This document shows, one piece after another, positions 33,712 through 44,461 of a stretch of 64,000 nucleotides of DNA. The position numbers were made by a program, and so were the translations under genes. The notes under the pieces are model-generated. The model worked only from the letters and a program-made list of their open reading frames with translations, was not told the origin of the DNA and did not search any database. Within the stretch, counting starts at the first letter, position 1. Each line of letters begins with the position of its first letter. Source of the stretch: Methylorubrum populi (GTDB taxonomy: Bacteria > Pseudomonadota > Alphaproteobacteria > Rhizobiales > Beijerinckiaceae); assembly GCA_020741775.1 (NCBI GenBank), contig DYYG01000035.1, forward strand, positions 310,001-374,000, read 5' to 3'.

Positions 33712-34067
33712 TCCGATCTCCGTCGCCGTGTCCCGAACCGATCGGCGCGGGGCGAACGCGGGTCTCGGTCTTGCGCGAGGGCGTCAACGCGCGCGGGCTC
33801 GCGGAGAGGCGGCGGGCGTGACGTCGGTCGCTCTGTCAGCGCGAAGTGGCGCAGCCGCCGCGCTCCGCAAGGCTTGCGGGCTCACGATTGTGAAGCTGGC
33901 CCCTAAAGACCAGCAGCCAAGCCGATCCCGTCTCCGGGTTCCTGTCGTGACATAGGGTCTTTCGACGAACCGGGACCCACTCTGCGGGAAACCGCTCCAG
34001 AGCCGTGCCCGACCGCGCTGCAATCGAGCACGGCTCTAGCCCCTTGTTGTGACGCGCTTTCTTGCGC

Positions 34068-34102
34068 CGAACCGGTCTCCACTTCGGCGGAACGTGCTCT
34101 AG
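34068..34102. repeat. intergenic repeat-like motif GAACCGGTCTCCACTTCGGCGGAACGTGCTCTAG
   Basis: Resembles the dispersed GAACCGGT-TCCACTT...GCTCTAG sequence common between alphaproteobacterial genes; overlaps the stop codon of the 34099 CDS. Confidence 0.45.
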
Positions 34103-34689
34103 CGCAGTTCCGAGACGAGACTGACGACCGAACTGCCGAGATGGGCCGCGCCGGTCCCGGCACTGCGGACCGCGTCCCAGGTCGCGTCGATGGCGGCGAA
34201 GGGCAGGGCCCCCGCTGGCAGGAAGCGGCTGCCCTCCGGCTCTGCCGGGGCGGACATGGATTTCGGCGGCGGCTGCGTCGTCGCCATCCGGCTGGCGGGC
34301 TGGCGGCGGCGTTCGACGCGGGCCGTGGCGGGGGACCGGGCCGGACGGGGGGCCACCTCGGGCTCGCCCAGGGCGACGAGGGGCGCGAGGCGAGCGAAGG
34401 CCTCGCTCGCCGGAACGGGCTCAAGATCGGCGACGAGGGCCTTGCCCGGATTGAATGGCGAGAGGCTCGGCGCCACGGTCATGGATGGCGGGGCCGACAG
34501 AGTGGCCTGCGCAGGAGCCTCGATGCCGATCGAGCCGGTCACCTCCGGGCCCTGCTTGGCCGGTTCCCGGCAAACGAGGGACAACAGGGCGGCGACGACG
34601 GCGAGGCCGAGGGTCGGCAAGAAAGGCGGCAGGCCGGCGCGGGGCGTCGCGGCCACATCCGGCTTTCGCAACGGATCGACGACGCGCAT
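34099..34689 (-). CDS. hypothetical protein with one predicted TM segment
   Basis: MRVVDPLRKPDVAATPRAGLPPFLPTLGLAVVAALLSLVC... Confidence 0.6.
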   Translation of the reverse strand: MRVVDPLRKPDVAATPRAGLPPFLPTLGLAVVAALLSLVCREPAKQGPEVTGSIGIEAPAQATLSAPPSMTVAPSLSPFNPGKALVADLEPVPASEAFARLAPLVALGEPEVAPRPARSPATARVERRRQPASRMATTQPPPKSMSAPAEPEGSRFLPAGALPFAAIDATWDAVRSAGTGAAHLGSSVVSLVSELR

Positions 34690-34898: not shown

Positions 34899-35486
34899 AT
34901 GACCGAGACCAGCCTCACCGTCGCCGTGATCGACCCGAGCCGCGTCCGCGCCGCGATTCTGGAGGAGGGGCTGCGCGCCTCCGGTGTCGGCACCGTCGTC
35001 GTCCTTCCCGACGGGCCGGATCTTCAGGCGCGGGTGGCGAGCCTCAGGCCCGACGTGATCGTGGTCCATCTCGAGAGCCCGAGCCGGGACGTTCTGGAGC
35101 AGATGTCCGGCCTGTCCCGGCAGGCTGAGCGGCCGGTGGCGATGTTCGTCGACCGTTCGGACCAGACCATGATGCAGGCGGCGGTCGATGCGGGCATCTC
35201 GGCCTACGTCGTCGACGGCCTGCGGGCGGAACGGATCAAGTCAATCCTCGACATCGCCATCCTGCGTTTCAACGCCTTCGCCCGGTTGCAGCGCGAACTC
35301 GACGAGGCCCGTTCGGAACTCGCCGACCGCAAGCTGATCGAGCGCGCCAAGGGCATCCTGATGACGCGGAAGGGGATGAGCGAGGAGGAGGCCTACAAGC
35401 TCCTCCGTCGGCAGGCGATGAACGAGAAGCGCAAGATCGTCGACATCGCCCGCGCCATCGTCACCGCGGCGGACCTGCTCGGATGA
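34899..35486 (+). CDS. nasT: ANTAR-domain response regulator, NasT-like RNA-binding antiterminator
   Basis: C-terminal ANTAR: LQRELDEARSELADRKLIERAKGILMTRKGMSEEEAYKLLRRQAMNEKRKIVDIARAIVTA; degenerate receiver domain; followed by nasS-like gene. Confidence 0.9.
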   Translation: MTETSLTVAVIDPSRVRAAILEEGLRASGVGTVVVLPDGPDLQARVASLRPDVIVVHLESPSRDVLEQMSGLSRQAERPVAMFVDRSDQTMMQAAVDAGISAYVVDGLRAERIKSILDIAILRFNAFARLQRELDEARSELADRKLIERAKGILMTRKGMSEEEAYKLLRRQAMNEKRKIVDIARAIVTAADLLG

Positions 35487-36502
35487 AGCTGACCCTCGGA
35501 TACGTTCCGCTCACCGACGCGGCCCCGGTGATCGCCGCGGCGGAGCTGGGTTTCGCCCAGGAGGAGGGGCTCGACCTCACCCTGTCGCGGGAGCCCTCCT
35601 GGGCGACCCTGCGCGACCGGCTGGCGCTGGGCCATCTCGACGCCGCGCATATGCTGGCCCCGCTGGCCATCGCCAGCGCCCTGGGACTTTCCGGGCCGCA
35701 GGCGAGTCTGGCCATACCGATGGCGCTCAACCTCAACGGCAACGCCGTGACGGTCTCCAACACGCTCTGGGAGGCGATGGCACCGGCGAGCGATGCCCTC
35801 GACGACGTCGCGGAGGCCTTCGCGCGGATCGCCGGAGAACGGGCCGCCGCCGGGAACCCGTTGACGATCGGCACGGTCCATCCCTTCTCCAGCCACTCCT
35901 ACCAGCTCCGCCACTTCGCGCGGCGCGGCGGATGCGATCTCGATGCCTGCGTGCGGATCGTGGCGGTGCCACCTCCGGATACGGTCGATGCCCTCCGGCG
36001 CGGCCTCCTTGACGGCGTCTGCGTCGGCGCACCCTGGAACAGCGTCGCGGTCGCCGCCGGTCTCGGGCGCATCGCGGCCCTGTGCTGCGAGATCGTCCCC
36101 GATTGTCCGGAGAAGGTGCTGGCCGTGGCGGCTGAGGCGGCAGATGCGTCCGGGCCCCTGGTGCGGGCCGTCCATCGCGCCGGTCTATGGTGCGCCGAGC
36201 CCGGCAACCGCAATGCCCTCGGCACCCTGCTCGCCGAGCGGGGCGGCTTCGCCTCCGTCGATGCTCCCCTGATCGCCCGAACCCTCGGCGGAGCGCTGAT
36301 CGTGGATGCGCAGGGCACCGAACGGACGAACCCCGCCTATCTCCGCCTCGGTGCCGCAACCCACCGGCCGGACCCGGATCAAGCCCGATGGCTGGTGGCG
36401 CAGATGGTTGCCTGCGGTCAGATCGCACCGGGGGGCGACGAGGCGGAGCGCGCGGCCGCTCTCTACCGGCCGGACACCTTCGAGGCTGCGACCGGGGCGT
36501 AA
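35483..36502 (+). CDS. nasS: CmpA/NrtA-family protein without signal peptide, NasS-like nitrate sensor
   Basis: MKLTLGYVPLTDAAPVIAAAELGFAQEEGLDLTLSREPSWATLRDRLALGHLDAAHMLAP; ATGA overlap with nasT. Confidence 0.88.
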   Translation: MKLTLGYVPLTDAAPVIAAAELGFAQEEGLDLTLSREPSWATLRDRLALGHLDAAHMLAPLAIASALGLSGPQASLAIPMALNLNGNAVTVSNTLWEAMAPASDALDDVAEAFARIAGERAAAGNPLTIGTVHPFSSHSYQLRHFARRGGCDLDACVRIVAVPPPDTVDALRRGLLDGVCVGAPWNSVAVAAGLGRIAALCCEIVPDCPEKVLAVAAEAADASGPLVRAVHRAGLWCAEPGNRNALGTLLAERGGFASVDAPLIARTLGGALIVDAQGTERTNPAYLRLGAATHRPDPDQARWLVAQMVACGQIAPGGDEAERAAALYRPDTFEAATGA

Positions 36503-36677
36503 CACGTCCTAACCGTGCCCCGGCCGGAGCGGGATGACGCCTGAGAACGGCCAAGCCTGCGCATCAGACCGCCATTTGCCTAGTTTTTAAGCAAAGTCCT
36601 TCGGCTGCACCTCTTCCGCCCCGGACGTTCCCCGGCTCGTGCCCGAATTTGACGTCGCACAGCATGCCGGGATCGGT

Positions 36678-36692
36678 TGGCACGCTTCCTGC
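36678..36692 (+). promoter_or_regulatory. sigma54 (RpoN)-type -24/-12 promoter
   Basis: TGGCACGCTTCCTGC vs consensus TGGCAC-N5-TTGC; GG/GC spacing correct. Confidence 0.7.
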
Positions 36693-36707
36693 GAATCATT
36701 CCACACA

Positions 36708-36816
36708 GGCGTGCCAACGACGACGCGCCCTCACAGAATCAGCAAAGCCGCTGATCCGGATTCTCTGCACGCGACGATTGTCGATCGCGCAGGCGATCCC
36801 GGACGGCGGCTTTCTT
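36708..36816 (+). promoter_or_regulatory. Candidate ANTAR (NasT) RNA leader: dual hexaloop hairpins plus overlapping intrinsic terminator
   Basis: P1 36708-36729 loop AACGAC; P2 36738-36755 ATCAGC[AAAGCC]GCTGAT; terminator arms AAAGCCGC (36744-36751) / GCGGCTTT (36806-36813), TCCGG / CCGGA, then TTTCTT. Confidence 0.75.
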
Positions 36817-36850
36817 CATGTGCGCTCAGGGCAACGGAGACGAAGAGCGG

Positions 36851-38143
36851 ATGAGCATCGATCAGGGCAACACGACCCGTCGCGGCGTCCTCAAGGGAGC
36901 GGCAGCCGCCCTCGCCTTGGCGGGTGCCGCCCGCGCCGCCTTGCCGGCCGGTGCCTTCGCGCAGGGTGCCGGCCCGGAGGTGAAGGGCGTGAAGCTCGGC
37001 TTCATCGCGCTCACCGACGCGGCGCCGCTGTTCGTCGCTAAGGAGAAGGGCATCTTCGCCAAGTACGGCCTGCCGGAAACGGAGGTGCTGAAGCAGGCCT
37101 CCTGGGGCACCACCCGTGACAACCTCGTGCTCGGCTCCGAGGGCAACGGCATCGACGGCGCCCACATCCTCACGCCGATGCCGTACCTGATCTCCGCCGG
37201 CCGGGTGACGCAGAACAACGTGCCGGTGCCGATGTACATCATGGCCCGGCTCAACCTGAACGGTCAGTGCATCTCGATCTCCAAGGAATATCTCGACCAG
37301 AAGATCGGTCTCGACACCAAGCCGTTCAAAATCGCGCTGGAGAAGAAGAAGGCCTCCGGCAAGGCCGTGAAGGCGGCGATGACCTTCCCCGGCGGCACCC
37401 ACGACCTGTGGATCCGCTACTGGCTCGCCGCCGGCGGCATCGACCCGGACAAGGACATCGAGACCATCGTCGTGCCGCCGCCCCAGATGGTGGCGAACAT
37501 GAAGGTCGGCACGATGGACTGCTTCTGCGTCTGCGAGCCGTGGAACGAGCAGCTCATCCACCAGGGCATCGGCTACACCGCCGTCACCACCGGCGAACTC
37601 TGGAAGGATCACCCGGAGAAGGCCTTCGCCATGCGCGCGGCCTGGGTCGACAAATATCCTAACGCTGCCAAGGCCCTGCTGATGGCGGTGATGGAAGCCC
37701 AGCAATGGTGCGACAAGCCGGAGAATCGCGACGAGATGGCGGCCATCGTCGCCAAGCGTCAGTGGATCAACGTGCCGGTCGCCGATGTGGTCGACCGGAT
37801 GAAGGGCAAGTTCGACTACGGCACCGGCCGCATCGTCGAGAACAGCCCCTTCACCATGAAGTTCTGGGCCGACAACGCCTCCTATCCCTACCGGTCGCAT
37901 GACCTCTGGTTCCTCACCGAGGACATCCGCTGGGGCAAGTTCGACGCGCAGACCGACACCAAGGCACTGATCGCCAAGGTCAACCGCGAGGATCTCTGGC
38001 GCGAGGCCGCCAAGGCGCTCGGCGTCACCAGCCTCCCGGCTTCCACCTCGCGCGGCGTCGAGACGCTGTTCGACGGCAAGGTGTTCGATCCGGAAAACCC
38101 GGCCGCCTACCTCGCCAGCCTCGACATCAAGAAGGTCGCGTGA
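36851..38143 (+). CDS. nrtA: nitrate ABC transporter substrate-binding protein (CmpA/NrtA)
   Basis: NTTRRGVLKGAAAALALAGAARA Tat-like signal; VKLGFIALTDAAPLFVAKEKGIFAKYGLPETEVLKQASWGTTRDNLVLG. Confidence 0.92.
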   Translation: MSIDQGNTTRRGVLKGAAAALALAGAARAALPAGAFAQGAGPEVKGVKLGFIALTDAAPLFVAKEKGIFAKYGLPETEVLKQASWGTTRDNLVLGSEGNGIDGAHILTPMPYLISAGRVTQNNVPVPMYIMARLNLNGQCISISKEYLDQKIGLDTKPFKIALEKKKASGKAVKAAMTFPGGTHDLWIRYWLAAGGIDPDKDIETIVVPPPQMVANMKVGTMDCFCVCEPWNEQLIHQGIGYTAVTTGELWKDHPEKAFAMRAAWVDKYPNAAKALLMAVMEAQQWCDKPENRDEMAAIVAKRQWINVPVADVVDRMKGKFDYGTGRIVENSPFTMKFWADNASYPYRSHDLWFLTEDIRWGKFDAQTDTKALIAKVNREDLWREAAKALGVTSLPASTSRGVETLFDGKVFDPENPAAYLASLDIKKVA

Positions 38144-39000
38144 TGGCCACCGGAGCAACCCTCGCCGCAACCCGCGACCGCGCCGCCAAGGTTCGCGGCC
38201 CCCTCGTGACCCTGGCGGGCCTGCGCGGCATCGCTGCCCGGGTCCTGCCGCCGCTCGTCGTCCTGGCGGGCTTCCTGCTGCTGTGGGAGGTGCTGTGCTC
38301 CTCTCCGACCGCCGGCCTGCCGCCGCCCTCGCGGGTGGTGGCCGAGGCCTGGGACATCATCGTCGATCCGTTCTACGACAACGGCGGCACCGATAAGGGC
38401 CTGTTCTGGCACATCACGGCGAGCCTCCAGCGGGTCGCGCTGGGCTTCGCCCTGGCGGTGGTGGCGGGCGTTCTGCTCGGCACCCTGGTCGGCCAGTCCG
38501 AATGGGCGATGCGCGGCCTCGATCCGATCTTCCAGGTCCTGCGGACGATCCCGCCGCTGGCTTGGCTGCCGCTGTCGCTGGCCGCCTTCCGAGACGGGCA
38601 GCCGAGCGCGATCTTCGTGATCTTCATCACCTCGATCTGGCCGATCATCATCAACACCGCCGTCGGCATCCGCAACATTCCGCAGGACTACCGCAACGTC
38701 GCCGCCGTGATCCGGCTCAACCCGATCGAGTTCTTTGTGAAGATCATGCTGCCCTCCGCAGCGCCATACATCTTCACCGGTCTTCGCATCGGCGTCGGCC
38801 TGTCCTGGCTCGCCATCGTCGCGGCCGAGATGCTGATCGGCGGCGTCGGCATCGGCTTCTTCATCTGGGACGCGTGGAATTCCTCGCACATCAGCGAGAT
38901 CATCGTCGCCCTGGTCTATGTCGGGCTCATCGGCTTCGTCCTCGACCGTCTGGTCGCCGGCGTCGGCGTGCTCGTCACCCGCGGCACCAGCGCAGCCTGA
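38143..39000 (+). CDS. nrtB: nitrate ABC transporter permease
   Basis: LGFALAVVAGVLLGTLVGQSEWAMRGLDPIFQVLRTIPPLAWLPLSLAAF, SWLAIVAAEMLIGGVGIGFFIWDAWN. Confidence 0.92.
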   Translation: MATGATLAATRDRAAKVRGPLVTLAGLRGIAARVLPPLVVLAGFLLLWEVLCSSPTAGLPPPSRVVAEAWDIIVDPFYDNGGTDKGLFWHITASLQRVALGFALAVVAGVLLGTLVGQSEWAMRGLDPIFQVLRTIPPLAWLPLSLAAFRDGQPSAIFVIFITSIWPIIINTAVGIRNIPQDYRNVAAVIRLNPIEFFVKIMLPSAAPYIFTGLRIGVGLSWLAIVAAEMLIGGVGIGFFIWDAWNSSHISEIIVALVYVGLIGFVLDRLVAGVGVLVTRGTSAA

Positions 39001-39012
39001 GGGACGAACATC

Positions 39013-39807
39013 ATGGCCCATCTCTCCCTCTCCCAGGTCGGCATCACCTTCCGCCGCGGCGGCAAGACATCGGAAGTCTTGCGCGACGTGAACCTCGACA
39101 TCGCCAAGGGCGAGTTCGTCTCGATCATCGGGCATTCGGGTTGCGGCAAGTCGACGGTGCTCAACATCGTCGCCGGCCTGCTCAAGGCCTCGACCGGCGG
39201 CGTGCTCCTCGACGGCAAGGAGGTGAATGCCCCCGGCCCCGACCGCGCCGTGGTGTTCCAGAACCACTCGCTCCTGCCCTGGCTCACCGTGCGCGAGAAC
39301 GTGGCGCTCGCCGTCGACAAGGTGCTCAGGGGCAAGAAGTCGAAGGCCGAGCGGGCCCAGTGGATCGAGCACAACCTCGCCCTCGTGAACATGATGCACG
39401 CCGCCGACAAGCGCCCGGCGGAGATCTCCGGCGGCATGAAGCAGCGCGTCGGCATCGCCCGCGCGCTCGCCATGGAACCGACCGTGCTCCTGATGGACGA
39501 GCCGTTCGGGGCGCTCGACGCGCTCACCCGCGCCCACCTTCAGGACCAGTTGATGGAGATCCAGACGCGCCTGCGGAACACCGTCATCATGATCACCCAC
39601 GACGTGGACGAGGCGGTGCTGCTCTCCGACCGCATCGTGATGATGACCAACGGGCCCTCCGCCACCATCGGCGAGATCCTGCCCGTGGATCTGCCCCGCC
39701 CACGTCGCCGGCTCGATCTGGTGGAGGACGCCACCTACGTTCACGCGCGTGCCGCAGTCTTGGAATTTCTCTATGCCCGGCATGCCAGGCCCGCCCTCGC
39801 GGCGTGA
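39013..39807 (+). CDS. nitrate ABC transporter ATP-binding protein
   Basis: Walker A GHSGCGKST, signature ISGGMKQRVGIARALA, Walker B VLLMDEPFGALDALT. Confidence 0.93.
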   Translation: MAHLSLSQVGITFRRGGKTSEVLRDVNLDIAKGEFVSIIGHSGCGKSTVLNIVAGLLKASTGGVLLDGKEVNAPGPDRAVVFQNHSLLPWLTVRENVALAVDKVLRGKKSKAERAQWIEHNLALVNMMHAADKRPAEISGGMKQRVGIARALAMEPTVLLMDEPFGALDALTRAHLQDQLMEIQTRLRNTVIMITHDVDEAVLLSDRIVMMTNGPSATIGEILPVDLPRPRRRLDLVEDATYVHARAAVLEFLYARHARPALAA

Positions 39808-39834
39808 CTTGGTAAACCGGGGGGGCGTGACTTG

Positions 39835-41055
39835 ATGAGCATGAAGGAAAGACTTGTCGTCGTCGGTAACGGGATGGCTTCGCTTCGCTTCCTGGAGCGG
39901 CTGACCGAGCGGGCGCCGGGCCGCTACGATGTGACCGTGGTCGGCGCCGAGCCGGTGGCGGCCTACAACCGGGTGCTGCTCTCCTCGCTGCTCGGCGGCG
40001 AGGTGGACGAGGCGGCCTGCGGCTTCCGTCCCCTGTCCTGGTACGAGGAGCACGGCATCCGCCTCGTTACCGGCGCGCCGGTGACGGAGATCGACCGGGC
40101 CAACCGCCTCGCCGTCGTCGGGGAGACGCATGTCCTGCCCTATGACCGGCTGGTCCTGGCGGTGGGCTCGCTGCCGATCCGGCTGCCCCTTCCGGGCATC
40201 GACCTGCCCGGCGTCCTGACCTTCCGCGACTTCGCCGACGTGGCGGCGATCCGGAAGGCGGCGGTGGCTCACGCCAAGGCGGTGGTGATCGGCGGCGGCC
40301 TGCTCGGGCTGGAAGCCGCCGTCGGGCTCGCCCGGCTCGGAGTCGAGACCACCCTCGTCCACGTCATGGACCGGGTGATGGAGCGCCAGCTCGATCACAG
40401 CGCCGCCCGCCTCGTGCGCGCGGCGATGGAGGCCAGGGGCGTGCGGATGCTGCTCTCGGCCGACACCGCCGCCATCGAGGGCGACGGCCGGGTCGAGCGC
40501 TTGGTGATGAAGGACGGCACGGTGGTGCCGGCGGATCTCGTGGTGATGTCGGTCGGCATCCGCGCCTCGATGGCGCTGGCGCAATCCTGCGGGCTCGCCT
40601 GCGGACGCGGCATCACCGTCGACGACCGCATGACCACTTCGGACCCGGCGATCCATGCGCTGGGCGAATGCGCGGAGCACAGAGGCGTGGTTTACGGCCT
40701 CGTCGAGCCCGCCTACGAGCAGGCCGAAGTGCTGTCGCGCCATCTCGTCGGCGAAGCGGCGGCCTATTCCGGCACGTCCCTTGCCACGAGCCTCAAGGTG
40801 TCGGGCCTGCCGGTCTTCTCGGCCGGGCTGGTCGATACGCCGGACGGCGCCGAGGCGATCGTGATGCACGACGCCGCCGCCGGGCTCTACCGCAAACTGA
40901 TCGTCATCGACGGGCGGCTCGCAGGAGCCGTCTTCGTCGGCGACATCTCGGAGCAGGCGCGCTGCAAGGAGCTGATCCGCTCCGGCGCGCCGCTCTCCCC
41001 TGACGACCGGGACGATCTGATGTTCGGCCCGGCCCCGAAAACCCTCGCAGCGTGA
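39835..41055 (+). CDS. NAD(P)/FAD-dependent oxidoreductase resembling the flavin domain of NirB
   Basis: RLVVVGNGMASLRFLERLTER...YNRVLLSSLLGGEVDEA; AVVIGGGLLGLEAAVGLARLGVETTLVHVMDRVMERQLD. Confidence 0.88.
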   Translation: MSMKERLVVVGNGMASLRFLERLTERAPGRYDVTVVGAEPVAAYNRVLLSSLLGGEVDEAACGFRPLSWYEEHGIRLVTGAPVTEIDRANRLAVVGETHVLPYDRLVLAVGSLPIRLPLPGIDLPGVLTFRDFADVAAIRKAAVAHAKAVVIGGGLLGLEAAVGLARLGVETTLVHVMDRVMERQLDHSAARLVRAAMEARGVRMLLSADTAAIEGDGRVERLVMKDGTVVPADLVVMSVGIRASMALAQSCGLACGRGITVDDRMTTSDPAIHALGECAEHRGVVYGLVEPAYEQAEVLSRHLVGEAAAYSGTSLATSLKVSGLPVFSAGLVDTPDGAEAIVMHDAAAGLYRKLIVIDGRLAGAVFVGDISEQARCKELIRSGAPLSPDDRDDLMFGPAPKTLAA

Positions 41056-42857
41056 GTGAGGCAGCGATGGCAGACGATTTCAACGCCGAGCAGAAGCGCT
41101 ATCTGGAAGGCTTCGCCTCCGGCATCGCGGCGGCCCGGATGACCGGCGGGCTGGCGATCGGGCAGACGGCCGCGAGCGCGCCGTCCGAGCCGACAGGGCC
41201 GGACGCGATCCACATCAAGGCGCAGGACCGCACCGTGAAGGACGGCGGCAAGCTCTGCGACCAGGAGAAGTGGAAGCGCGCCGAGAACCCGTTCGACGGC
41301 CATAACCGCCTGATCGCCGAGGCCGCGACCGGCAAGGCGCCCAAGCCGGAGGACAATTTCCGCTGGCGCTATCACGGCCTGTTCTGGGTCGCCCCGACCC
41401 AGACCTCGTATATGTGCCGCCTGCGCATCCCCAACGGGATCCTGCAGCACTGGCAATTCGCCGGCATCGCCGACCTCGCCGACAAGCATGGCGGCCCCTA
41501 CAGCCACGTCACGACCCGCGCCAACCTTCAGGTGCGCGAGATCGCGCCGGAGCACGGCCAGGCCTTTCTCGACGGGCTGGTCGATCTCGGCCTCACCGCC
41601 CGCGGCTCCGGCGCGGACAACATCCGCAACGTCACAGGCTCCCCGACCGCCGGCATCGACGCGCAGGAATTGCTCGACACCCGGCCGCTGGCCAAGTCCT
41701 GGCACAACTGGATCCTCAACGACCGCTCGCTGTTCGGCCTGCCGCGCAAGTTCAACGTCGCCTTCGACGGCGGCGGCGTGATGCCGGTGCTGGAGGAGAC
41801 CAACGATATCGGCTTCCAGGCGATCGAGGTGCTGGAGGGCGCTGCCGTCCCCGCCGGCATCTGGATGCGCCTCGTGCTCGGCGGCATCTCCGGCCACAAG
41901 GATCTCGCCCGCGACACCGGCATCGTCCTCCGGCCCGAGGAGTGCAACCAAGTCGCCGACGCGATCCTGCGGGTCTTCATCGAGAACGGTGACCGGACCA
42001 ACCGCAACAAAGCCCGCATGAAGTACGTCCTCGACGCCTGGGGCTTCGACAAGTACCTCGCCGCCGTCGAGGAAAAGCTCGGCCGCAAGCTCGAACGGGT
42101 CGCCCCCGAGCACGTGGCGCCGAGGAAGCCCACCGACCGCTTCAGCCATGTCGGCGTGCACAAGCAGGTGCAGCCGGGCCTGAACTGGATCGGCGTGGTG
42201 CTCCCCGTCGGTAAGATGACCACCGACGAGATGCGCGAACTCGCCAAGATCTCCGCCGAGTGCGGCGACGGCCAGATCCGCCTCACCGTCTGGCAGAACT
42301 TCATCTTCTCCGGCGTGCCGGACGCCAGGGTGGCGGAGGTGGAGGCGCGGGTCGCGGCTTTGGGCCTCACCACCAAGGCCGCCGGCATCCGCTCCGGGCT
42401 CGTGGCCTGCACCGGCGCCCGCGGCTGCAAATTCGCCGCCGCCGACACCAAGGGCCACGCGATGATCATCGCCGATCATGTCGAGCGGGCGGTCCCCGGC
42501 CTCGACGTGCCGGTGAACGTCCACCTCACCGGCTGCCACCATTCCTGCGCCCAGCATTATATCGGCGATATCGGCCTGATCGGCGCCAAGGTCGTCGTCT
42601 CGGAGGAGGGCGACACCGTCGAGGGCTACGACATCGTGGTCGGCGGCGGTTTCGCCGAGAACCCGAAGATCGGCACCGAGATCTGGAAGGCGGTGAAGGC
42701 CGAGGACGCGCCCTCCCGCGTCGAGGCCCTGCTCAACGCCTATCTCGCCCGCCGCCTTGGCCCGGAGGAGAGCTTCCAGGCCTTCACCGCGCGCACCGGC
42801 CCCGAGGCCCTGCGCGACGCCGCCGAAGAACAACCTGCCCTCAAGGCCGCCGCATGA
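41052..42857 (+). CDS. NirA-type siroheme nitrite (sulfite) reductase
   Basis: Siroheme/4Fe-4S motifs CTGARGC (CX5C) and CHHSC (CX3C); YSHVTTRANLQVREI; position in nitrate cluster. Confidence 0.9.
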   Translation: MSEAAMADDFNAEQKRYLEGFASGIAAARMTGGLAIGQTAASAPSEPTGPDAIHIKAQDRTVKDGGKLCDQEKWKRAENPFDGHNRLIAEAATGKAPKPEDNFRWRYHGLFWVAPTQTSYMCRLRIPNGILQHWQFAGIADLADKHGGPYSHVTTRANLQVREIAPEHGQAFLDGLVDLGLTARGSGADNIRNVTGSPTAGIDAQELLDTRPLAKSWHNWILNDRSLFGLPRKFNVAFDGGGVMPVLEETNDIGFQAIEVLEGAAVPAGIWMRLVLGGISGHKDLARDTGIVLRPEECNQVADAILRVFIENGDRTNRNKARMKYVLDAWGFDKYLAAVEEKLGRKLERVAPEHVAPRKPTDRFSHVGVHKQVQPGLNWIGVVLPVGKMTTDEMRELAKISAECGDGQIRLTVWQNFIFSGVPDARVAEVEARVAALGLTTKAAGIRSGLVACTGARGCKFAAADTKGHAMIIADHVERAVPGLDVPVNVHLTGCHHSCAQHYIGDIGLIGAKVVVSEEGDTVEGYDIVVGGGFAENPKIGTEIWKAVKAEDAPSRVEALLNAYLARRLGPEESFQAFTARTGPEALRDAAEEQPALKAAA

Positions 42858-44461
42858 CCCAGCACGTCGCGCCCCCGCTCGTTCTCATCCCCGAGAGCGC
42901 CCCCTTCAACCCCGACCAGCGCTCCTGGCTGTCGGGCTACTTCGCCGCTCTCCTCGGCCCGGCCGTGGAAGGCGCCACCGCGCTGGCCCCCGGCGAGATG
43001 CCCGGCAGCGCGAAGAAGCTCGCCGACAACGACGACGCGCCCTGGCACGACCCGTCCATGCCGATCACCGACCGCATGGATCTGGCCAAGGACAAGTCGG
43101 AGCCGCAGAAGCTGATGGCCGCCATGGCCCAGCAGGATTGCGGCCAGTGCGGCTACAATTGCGCCGACTATGCCAACGCGATCTTCCTCAAGAGCGAGGA
43201 GCGCCTGAACCTTTGCCAGCCCGGCGGCAAAGAGACCCTGCGGATGCTGAAGAAGCTGGAGGAGGAGTTCGCCGCCTCCGGCGGCACGGCGGCGACTCCG
43301 GCGGCGGAAGCGGGCACTGCGCCGAAGAAGGAGCCGGAACTCGGCCCGCTCGGCTATTGCCGAGAGAACCCGGTCGAGGCGACCTTCCTCTCCCGCACTC
43401 GCCTCAATGCGCCGGGCGGCGAGAAGGAGACCTGGCATATCGAGATCGATCTGGCGGGCACGCCGATCGCGTATGAAGCCGGCGATTCCCTCGGGCTGTT
43501 CCCCGCCAACGCCCCGGCCCTGGTCGATGCGGTGATCGCCGAACTCGGCGCCCGGCCCGAGCGGATGATCGGCGGCAAGAGCCTGCGCACCCGGCTGCTG
43601 ACCGAGTATTCCCTCGGCGCGGCGCCCGATAACCTCTACCAGCTGCTCTCGCTGCTGACCTCGGGCGAGGCCCGGAAGAAGGCGCAGGCCCTGGCGGCGG
43701 GCGAGGACCCGGACGGCGACGCGCAATATCTCGACGTGCTCGGCGCCCTCCACAAGTTCCCGGGCGCCCGACCGGATGCCGAGGTGTTTCTCGAAGCCCT
43801 CGACGAGCTGCAGCCGCGGCTCTACTCGATCTCCTCCTCGCCGAAGATGGACAAGGGCCGGGTGTCGCTCACCGTCGATGCGGTGCGCTACACCCACCGC
43901 TCGCGGCTGCGCCTGGGGGTCGCCTCGACCCATCTCGGCGAGCGCCTGCCCGAGCAGACCAAGGTCCGGATCTACCTCCAGAAGGCGCACGGCTTCGGCC
44001 TGCCGGAGGATCTGTCCAAGGACGTGATCATGTGCGGTCCCGGCACCGGCGTCGCGCCCTTCCGTTCCTTCCTGCGCGAACGCGCCGCCACCGGGGCTCC
44101 CGGCCGCAACTGGCTGTTCTACGGCCACCAGCGGCAGGCCTCGGACTTCTTCTACAAGGAGGAGCTGAACGGCCTGAAAGACCAGAAGGTGCTCACCCGT
44201 CTCTCGCTCGCATGGTCGCGGGACGGCGGCGAGAAGACCTACGTGCAGGACCGGATGCGGGAGAACGGCGCCGAGCTGTGGAAGTGGCTGGAGGGCGGCG
44301 CCCATTTCTACGTCTGCGGCGATGCCAAGCGCATGGCCAAGGACGTGGAGCGGGCGATCATCGACGTCGCCGCCCAGTTCGGGGGCAAGAACCCCGACGA
44401 GGCGGTGGCCTATCTCGCCGCCCTGAAGAAGGCCGGGCGCTATCAGGCCGACGTGTACTGA
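42854..44461 (+). CDS. CysJ/FNR-like flavoprotein with N-terminal 4Fe-4S motif and no flavodoxin domain
   Basis: CGQCGYNCADYANAIFLKSEERLNLCQPGG Fe-S motif; RLYSISSSPKM, CGPGTGVAPFRSFLRER, FVYCGDAKRMAKDV-type FNR motifs; ATGA overlap with nirA-like gene. Confidence 0.9.
   Translation: MTQHVAPPLVLIPESAPFNPDQRSWLSGYFAALLGPAVEGATALAPGEMPGSAKKLADNDDAPWHDPSMPITDRMDLAKDKSEPQKLMAAMAQQDCGQCGYNCADYANAIFLKSEERLNLCQPGGKETLRMLKKLEEEFAASGGTAATPAAEAGTAPKKEPELGPLGYCRENPVEATFLSRTRLNAPGGEKETWHIEIDLAGTPIAYEAGDSLGLFPANAPALVDAVIAELGARPERMIGGKSLRTRLLTEYSLGAAPDNLYQLLSLLTSGEARKKAQALAAGEDPDGDAQYLDVLGALHKFPGARPDAEVFLEALDELQPRLYSISSSPKMDKGRVSLTVDAVRYTHRSRLRLGVASTHLGERLPEQTKVRIYLQKAHGFGLPEDLSKDVIMCGPGTGVAPFRSFLRERAATGAPGRNWLFYGHQRQASDFFYKEELNGLKDQKVLTRLSLAWSRDGGEKTYVQDRMRENGAELWKWLEGGAHFYVCGDAKRMAKDVERAIIDVAAQFGGKNPDEAVAYLAALKKAGRYQADVY

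Follow-up and report, generated by a model that had tools for sequence, protein, structure and literature searches.

A probable NasT-dependent antitermination leader before the nitrate/nitrite assimilation operon of a Methylorubrum-type genome

The leader at positions 36704-36817 of the window (the whole 64-kb stretch of DNA analyzed here) is very probably a NasT-dependent transcription antitermination switch that precedes a nitrate/nitrite assimilation operon. The anatomy of the leader, its conservation and the competence of the accompanying protein are observed. A preliminary description of this DNA had assigned NasT/ANTAR antitermination to the nrtA leader, and this assignment is supported by covariation, by the invariance of A1 and G4 in the loops, by the RNA-contact residues of NasT and by the adjacency of nasT. 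Judged by its sequence, the genome is of the Methylorubrum type, with M. zatmanii as the closest named relative (the NrtA segment used is 100% identical to that of the window). The features of the region are as follows.

34899-35486, + strand: nasT, with response-regulator-like and ANTAR domains (Pfam Response_reg and ANTAR above cut-off; ANTAR 2e-21)
35483-36502, + strand: nasS, NMT1-like nitrate/nitrite sensor (Pfam NMT1_2, E 8e-65)
36577-36593, + strand: TGCCTAGTTTTTAAGCA, a candidate NtrC-like site located about 100 nt 5' of the -24 element
36677-36692, + strand: putative sigma-54 promoter TTGGCACGCTTCCTGC, with the -24 GG at 36679-36680 and the -12 GC at 36691-36692
36708-36729, + strand: P1 hairpin, GGCGTGCC[AACGAC]GACGCGCC, hexaloop 36716-36721
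36738-36755, + strand: P2 hairpin (antiterminator), ATCAGC[AAAGCC]GCTGAT with a perfect stem, hexaloop 36744-36749
36744-36759, + strand: terminator stem, 5' arm, AAAGCCGCTG(A)TCCGG; shares bases with the loop and 3' arm of P2
36799-36813, + strand: terminator stem, 3' arm, CCGGACGGCGGCTTT, that is CCGGA-CGGCGGCTTT
36811-36817, + strand: U-rich tract of the terminator, TTTCTTC (TTTTTTC in M. zatmanii), read from the sequence
36851-38143, + strand: nrtA-type NMT1-like substrate-binding protein (domain match and homology to relatives)
38143-44461, + strand: genes 3' of nrtA, namely nrtB permease, nrtC/D ATPase, NirB-like FAD protein, NirA nitrite reductase and a sulfite-reductase-type flavoprotein

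Domain matches place nasT and nasS immediately upstream of the leader, as had been described. Both belong to one operon, with the start of nasS overlapping the stop of nasT (35483 versus 35486), and a gap of 348 nt separates the end of nasS from the probable nrtA start at 36851, the more conserved of the possible starts. The ATG at 36818 is an unlikely start, being missing in some relatives, and homology begins at 36851. The genes from 38143 to 44461 probably share the nrtA operon and match TIGR01183, TIGR01184, TIGR02374 (below cut-off), NF007126 and NF004859. Elsewhere in the window, a sub-threshold match to the Brucella sRNA CI27 (RF02600) was found on the minus strand at 34000-34109 (29.8 bits versus a gathering score of 59.8, E 0.0012); it runs into the 3' end of the searched stretch.

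P1 and P2 agree base for base with their earlier description in position, mismatch, G.U pair and loops. P1 contains a C36714.A36723 mismatch and a U36712.G36725 pair, with seven of its eight pairs formed, and is connected by an 8-nt linker to P2, which has a stem of 6 bp. Both loops (AACGAC and AAAGCC) carry A at position 1 and G at position 4. The leader thus combines the elements of an ANTAR dual-hexaloop target, i.e., two hairpins of at least 3 bp, six-base loops, a short linker and the A1/G4 signature. The second pair of P1 is C.A in 12 of 38 aligned leaders (mostly Methylorubrum, the window included) and U-A in 25; the C.A combination is possibly a tolerated wobble.

The loop and the first 3' bases of P2 (AAAGCCGC, 36744-36751) are complementary to GCGGCTTT (36806-36813), which is followed by CTTC. 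This pairing had been proposed as the core of a competing terminator hairpin and is exact, but the stem is longer than claimed: AAAGCCGCTG-(A)-TCCGG pairs with CCGGA-CGGCGGCTTT over 15 bp with one bulged A. The stem takes up the P2 loop and nearly the whole P2 3' arm, so that P2 and the terminator exclude each other, as was previously stated. The full length of the stem, the sigma-54 promoter and the Rfam narK RNA match discussed below are additions to the preliminary description. The computed minimum free energy fold consists of P1 and the terminator, with calculated energies of -32.9 kcal/mol versus -17.0 kcal/mol for P1 with P2, and the fold of a 141-nt stretch is better than that of 200/200 dinucleotide shuffles (z -2.9). 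When folding of the growing transcript is modeled, P1 and P2 persist until the 3' arm emerges and the terminator supplants P2 once position 36813 is out, an order that is, in the model, as expected for an attenuator. A simple terminator scanner called no terminator at the leader, because of the large apical region.

One might read the leader as an ordinary sigma-54 leader with a terminator left from nasTS, in which the hexaloops are chance hairpins of GC-rich DNA. Hexaloops of this kind are indeed frequent by chance, singly (227 A1/G4 hairpins with at least 5 pairs in the 64-kb window versus 220 expected) and in pairs (10 versus 7.8 expected). The combination of two hexaloops with a T-run and a terminator arm whose sequence complements the P2 loop is seen only once in the 64 kb and in 0/40 Markov shuffles, by which a chance origin of the composite leader was rejected; this sole composite site additionally has a sigma-54 promoter. 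With A1 and G4 invariant in 41 leaders, stems that covary and P2 overlapping the terminator arm, the chance reading is already contradicted by conservation and almost certainly wrong.

NrtA is present in 41 of 59 genomes of the genus, and leaders were taken from these and from named species. Across 41 aligned leaders, invariance is confined to TGGCA and TGC of the promoter, to closing and flanking positions in the stems, and to A1 and G4 in each loop; the remaining loop positions vary, except that position 5 of the P2 loop is nearly always C. Covariation was scored on the 38 terminator-bearing leaders against shuffle controls that keep relatedness, and the counts are therefore to be read as support and not as a probability. 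P1 and P2 together have six pairs changed on both sides and 25 double-changed cells versus 9.3 in shuffles, and the terminator has 29 versus 12.4; slid-structure controls perform far worse than the true pairings of either structure. The eight basal pairs of the terminator are all kept (GU allowed) in 38/38 leaders, with compensatory changes at three pairs and, among relatives, TCCGG/CCGGA in place of CCCGAG/CTTGGG. The pairing between P2 loop and terminator is likewise kept in 38/38. The preliminary description would have been refuted by a lack of compensatory changes in related genomes; they are present in P1 and in the terminator. A covariance model that includes the window's own sequence gives one strong match in this genome (67 bits versus 20.7 for the next), and no further NasT targets above background were found there with this model.

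An ANTAR target could also act through translation or RNA stability, with the terminator-like stem being secondary. The U-tract of the window is imperfect, containing one C (TTTCTTC), a Methylobacterium sub-clade has P1 and P2 before nrtA without a U-tract terminator, and ANTAR matches without terminators are known near ribosome sites (PMC3369931). Against this, the terminator stem covaries and is found in every leader of the genus with nasTS adjacent, almost all close relatives have an intact U-tract, and the likely nrtA start codon lies 37 nt downstream of the end of the stem, which does not cover it. We consider such a mode of control very unlikely and retain antitermination as the reading of this leader.

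The window's genome has exactly one ANTAR match, nasT, located 1.2 kb upstream of the leader. NasT aligns without gaps to EutV (6wsh), and the solved ANTAR structures align as well. Among the 11 EutV residues compared, which contact the hexaloop (PMC8934654), eight are identical in NasT (R142, K143, K149, E160, Y164, R168, M172 and N173 in EutV numbering) and three are conservative K/R swaps (K147R, R175K and R177K, EutV to NasT). NasT contains a receiver-like domain in place of a NIT domain and is thus distinct from the NIT-ANTAR type of NasR/nasF; its receiver-like and ANTAR domains, the RNA-contact residues and the NMT1-like NasS encoded in the same operon conform to a NasS-NasT system. A nitrate-responsive leader under the control of another ANTAR protein (NIT-ANTAR, NasR type) could be envisaged from the additional ANTAR proteins of some relatives, but with the adjacent nasT as the single ANTAR match in this genome we regard it as extremely improbable.

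The link between NasT and the leader is also seen in Hyphomicrobiales (Rhizobiales), where P2 with terminator was found in 26 of 31 nrtA loci with nasT adjacent versus 2 of 38 without, counted over loci with enough flank; these loci are related, so the events are not independent. The full set of elements also occurs outside the genus, e.g., in Rhodopseudomonas, Afipia and other relatives. In M. zatmanii, leader and terminator are present with no nasTS within 4 kb, and in genome G201 (probably M. zatmanii) the sole ANTAR gene is on the leader's contig at a distance of about 11 kb; nasTS thus seems to be separated from the leader in these genomes.

We infer a promoter and an activator site at the leader from their sequences. 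The sigma-54 element at 36677-36692, with GG at -24, GC at -12 and a 10-base spacing, matches exactly and is alone in doing so in the window (0.04 expected); the genome encodes RpoN. Because the GC is placed at -12, transcription is predicted to start at about 36704, four bases 5' of P1. The preliminary description depended on a start upstream of P1 (36708), and the conserved promoter provides it by prediction. The NtrC consensus given in PMC5424462 has 11 constrained positions, of which the candidate NtrC-like site TGCCTAGTTTTTAAGCA matches 10, and GC[CA]-N10-GCA occurs upstream of 34 of 47 leaders of relatives versus 3.5 expected. In many Methylobacterium leaders, about 100 nt 5' of -24, there is a conserved block resembling GCC...TTTGTGCA(N)YGCAC; it is partly degenerate in the window (36577-36593), where it is the candidate NtrC site.

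Using cmscan, we found a match to Rfam narK RNA (RF03032) at 36679-36754. With 28.9 bits, below the gathering score of 43.2, the leader was rejected as a member of this family and kept as a functional match; no match in Hyphomicrobiales reached the gathering score. The RF03032 consensus starts with GGCaCAgcucUUGCU, readable as a sigma-54 promoter, and continues with GGCAGCC[AACGGC]GGCUGCC and CGAC[AAAGAC]GUCG, each an A1/G4 hexaloop. Common to both are thus a 5' sigma-54 core, P1 (with loop AACGGC in RF03032), a second hexaloop and a competing U-tract terminator; they differ in the score of the leader and in the Rfam model, which pairs the first hairpin only and spans promoter DNA. The 30 RF03032 matches analyzed in other Proteobacteria have the promoter core in 30/30, the P1 A1/G4 hexaloop in 29/30 and, with a strict script, the full set including a terminator that competes with P2 in 22/30. 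A model built from Methylobacterium only recovers most of these matches, 21 at E < 0.01. Read by eye for the translation start, RF03032 leaders precede NarK-type, NMT1-type and molybdopterin-reductase-like genes. At least eight genomes have an ANTAR gene no more than 240 nt from the match. We used this adjacency alone and set aside the genome-level ANTAR count for narK RNA genomes (19/19 versus 8/36), which is confounded by taxonomy and genome completeness. From its sequences, RF03032 is likely a sigma-54-promoted ANTAR leader. The phrases “narK RNA” and “narK motif” were not found in the literature searched, which does not include the source paper of the family. The narK motif reportedly originates from the 2017 work of Weinberg.

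The Methylobacterium sub-clade mentioned above (e.g., M. dankookense, M. symbioticum, M. trifolii and M. jeotgali) has nrtA leaders with sigma-54 promoter, P1 and P2 but without the U-tract terminator. In the eleven leaders of this type, nasTS is not adjacent wherever the flank length allows judging. A second leader was found in 7/7 terminator-less genomes searched; in the five loci read, this leader follows nasTS, carries a terminator and stands before a NirB-like gene. The P2 loop is GAGGCC in 8/8 leaders of this second type (these five loci and three genomes without nrtA, all behind nasTS and mostly before a NirB-like gene), keeping G4 with G at position 1, and the computed fold of this P2 has a 7-bp stem and an AGGC tetraloop. 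In EutV only G4 is base-contacted, A1 being thought to block cross-loop pairing (PMC8934654), and the GAGGCC loops are therefore natural exceptions worth testing. We tentatively suggest, as a real possibility that we do not yet favor, that narK RNA and the window leader form one sigma-54-promoted ANTAR class of Gammaproteobacteria and Hyphomicrobiales, which would be split in the Methylobacterium sub-clade into a terminator-less nrtA copy (with NasT acting via Rho, translation or stability) and a G1 copy behind nasTS.

Termination, binding and nitrate dependence at the leader are what we infer from the analysis as a whole. The transcript would start just 5' of P1 from a sigma-54 promoter that NtrC probably activates when nitrogen is limiting. 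When nitrate is absent, NasS would hold NasT, the P2 loop and 3' arm would pair with 36799-36813, and the polymerase would then presumably terminate in the U-tract; fold and conservation of this element are observed. With nitrate or nitrite, NasS would let NasT go, which would bind the P1 and P2 hexaloops and stabilize P2, thereby blocking the terminator and allowing transcription of nrtA and the genes that follow. Expression of the operon would then require nitrogen limitation and nitrate together (an AND gate), since the promoter would read the former and the terminator the latter. The assimilation operon of Methylorubrum, Methylobacterium and relatives would gain a defined nitrate switch whose two inputs are readable in the sequence, with nitrogen status acting at the promoter and nitrate acting at the terminator, and RF03032, which is annotated merely as cis-regulatory, would gain a testable function. 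The P2 loops with G1 and the terminator-less leaders could serve as tests of the A1/G4 rule and of the idea that ANTAR proteins work by attenuation only.

Experiments are available for related systems (PMC3795266, PMC5424462, PMC3369931, PMC8934654). The nasA leader of Paracoccus denitrificans (PMC3795266, PMC5424462) is similarly an intergenic two-hairpin leader with nasTS directly upstream. NasS releases NasT there upon nitrate or nitrite and NasT binds the nasA leader RNA (PMC3795266), while leader hairpin I is required for growth on nitrate, its mutant growing on nitrate like a nasT mutant (PMC5424462). The window leader differs in having a clear sigma-54 promoter in front of it and the nrtA gene of an ABC transporter behind it; for Paracoccus, a site for NtrC upstream of nasT has been tested, and no such site was identified ahead of nasA. 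Klebsiella oxytoca nasF/NasR (PMC3369931, PMC7496416) shares the ANTAR dual hexaloop, a P2 overlapping an intrinsic terminator and nitrate induction (proposed here), but NasR senses nitrate itself via its NIT domain, whereas in the window sensing is predicted for NasS and RNA binding for NasT. EutV/eutP (PMC3369931, PMC8934654) is alike in the two A1/G4 hexaloops, the P2 within the terminator and the RNA-contact residues, and unlike in the ethanolamine/AdoCbl signal, the kinase EutW and its Gram-positive hosts. The kind of switch is thus already known from Klebsiella nasF and Paracoccus nasA, to which the window leader adds a member.
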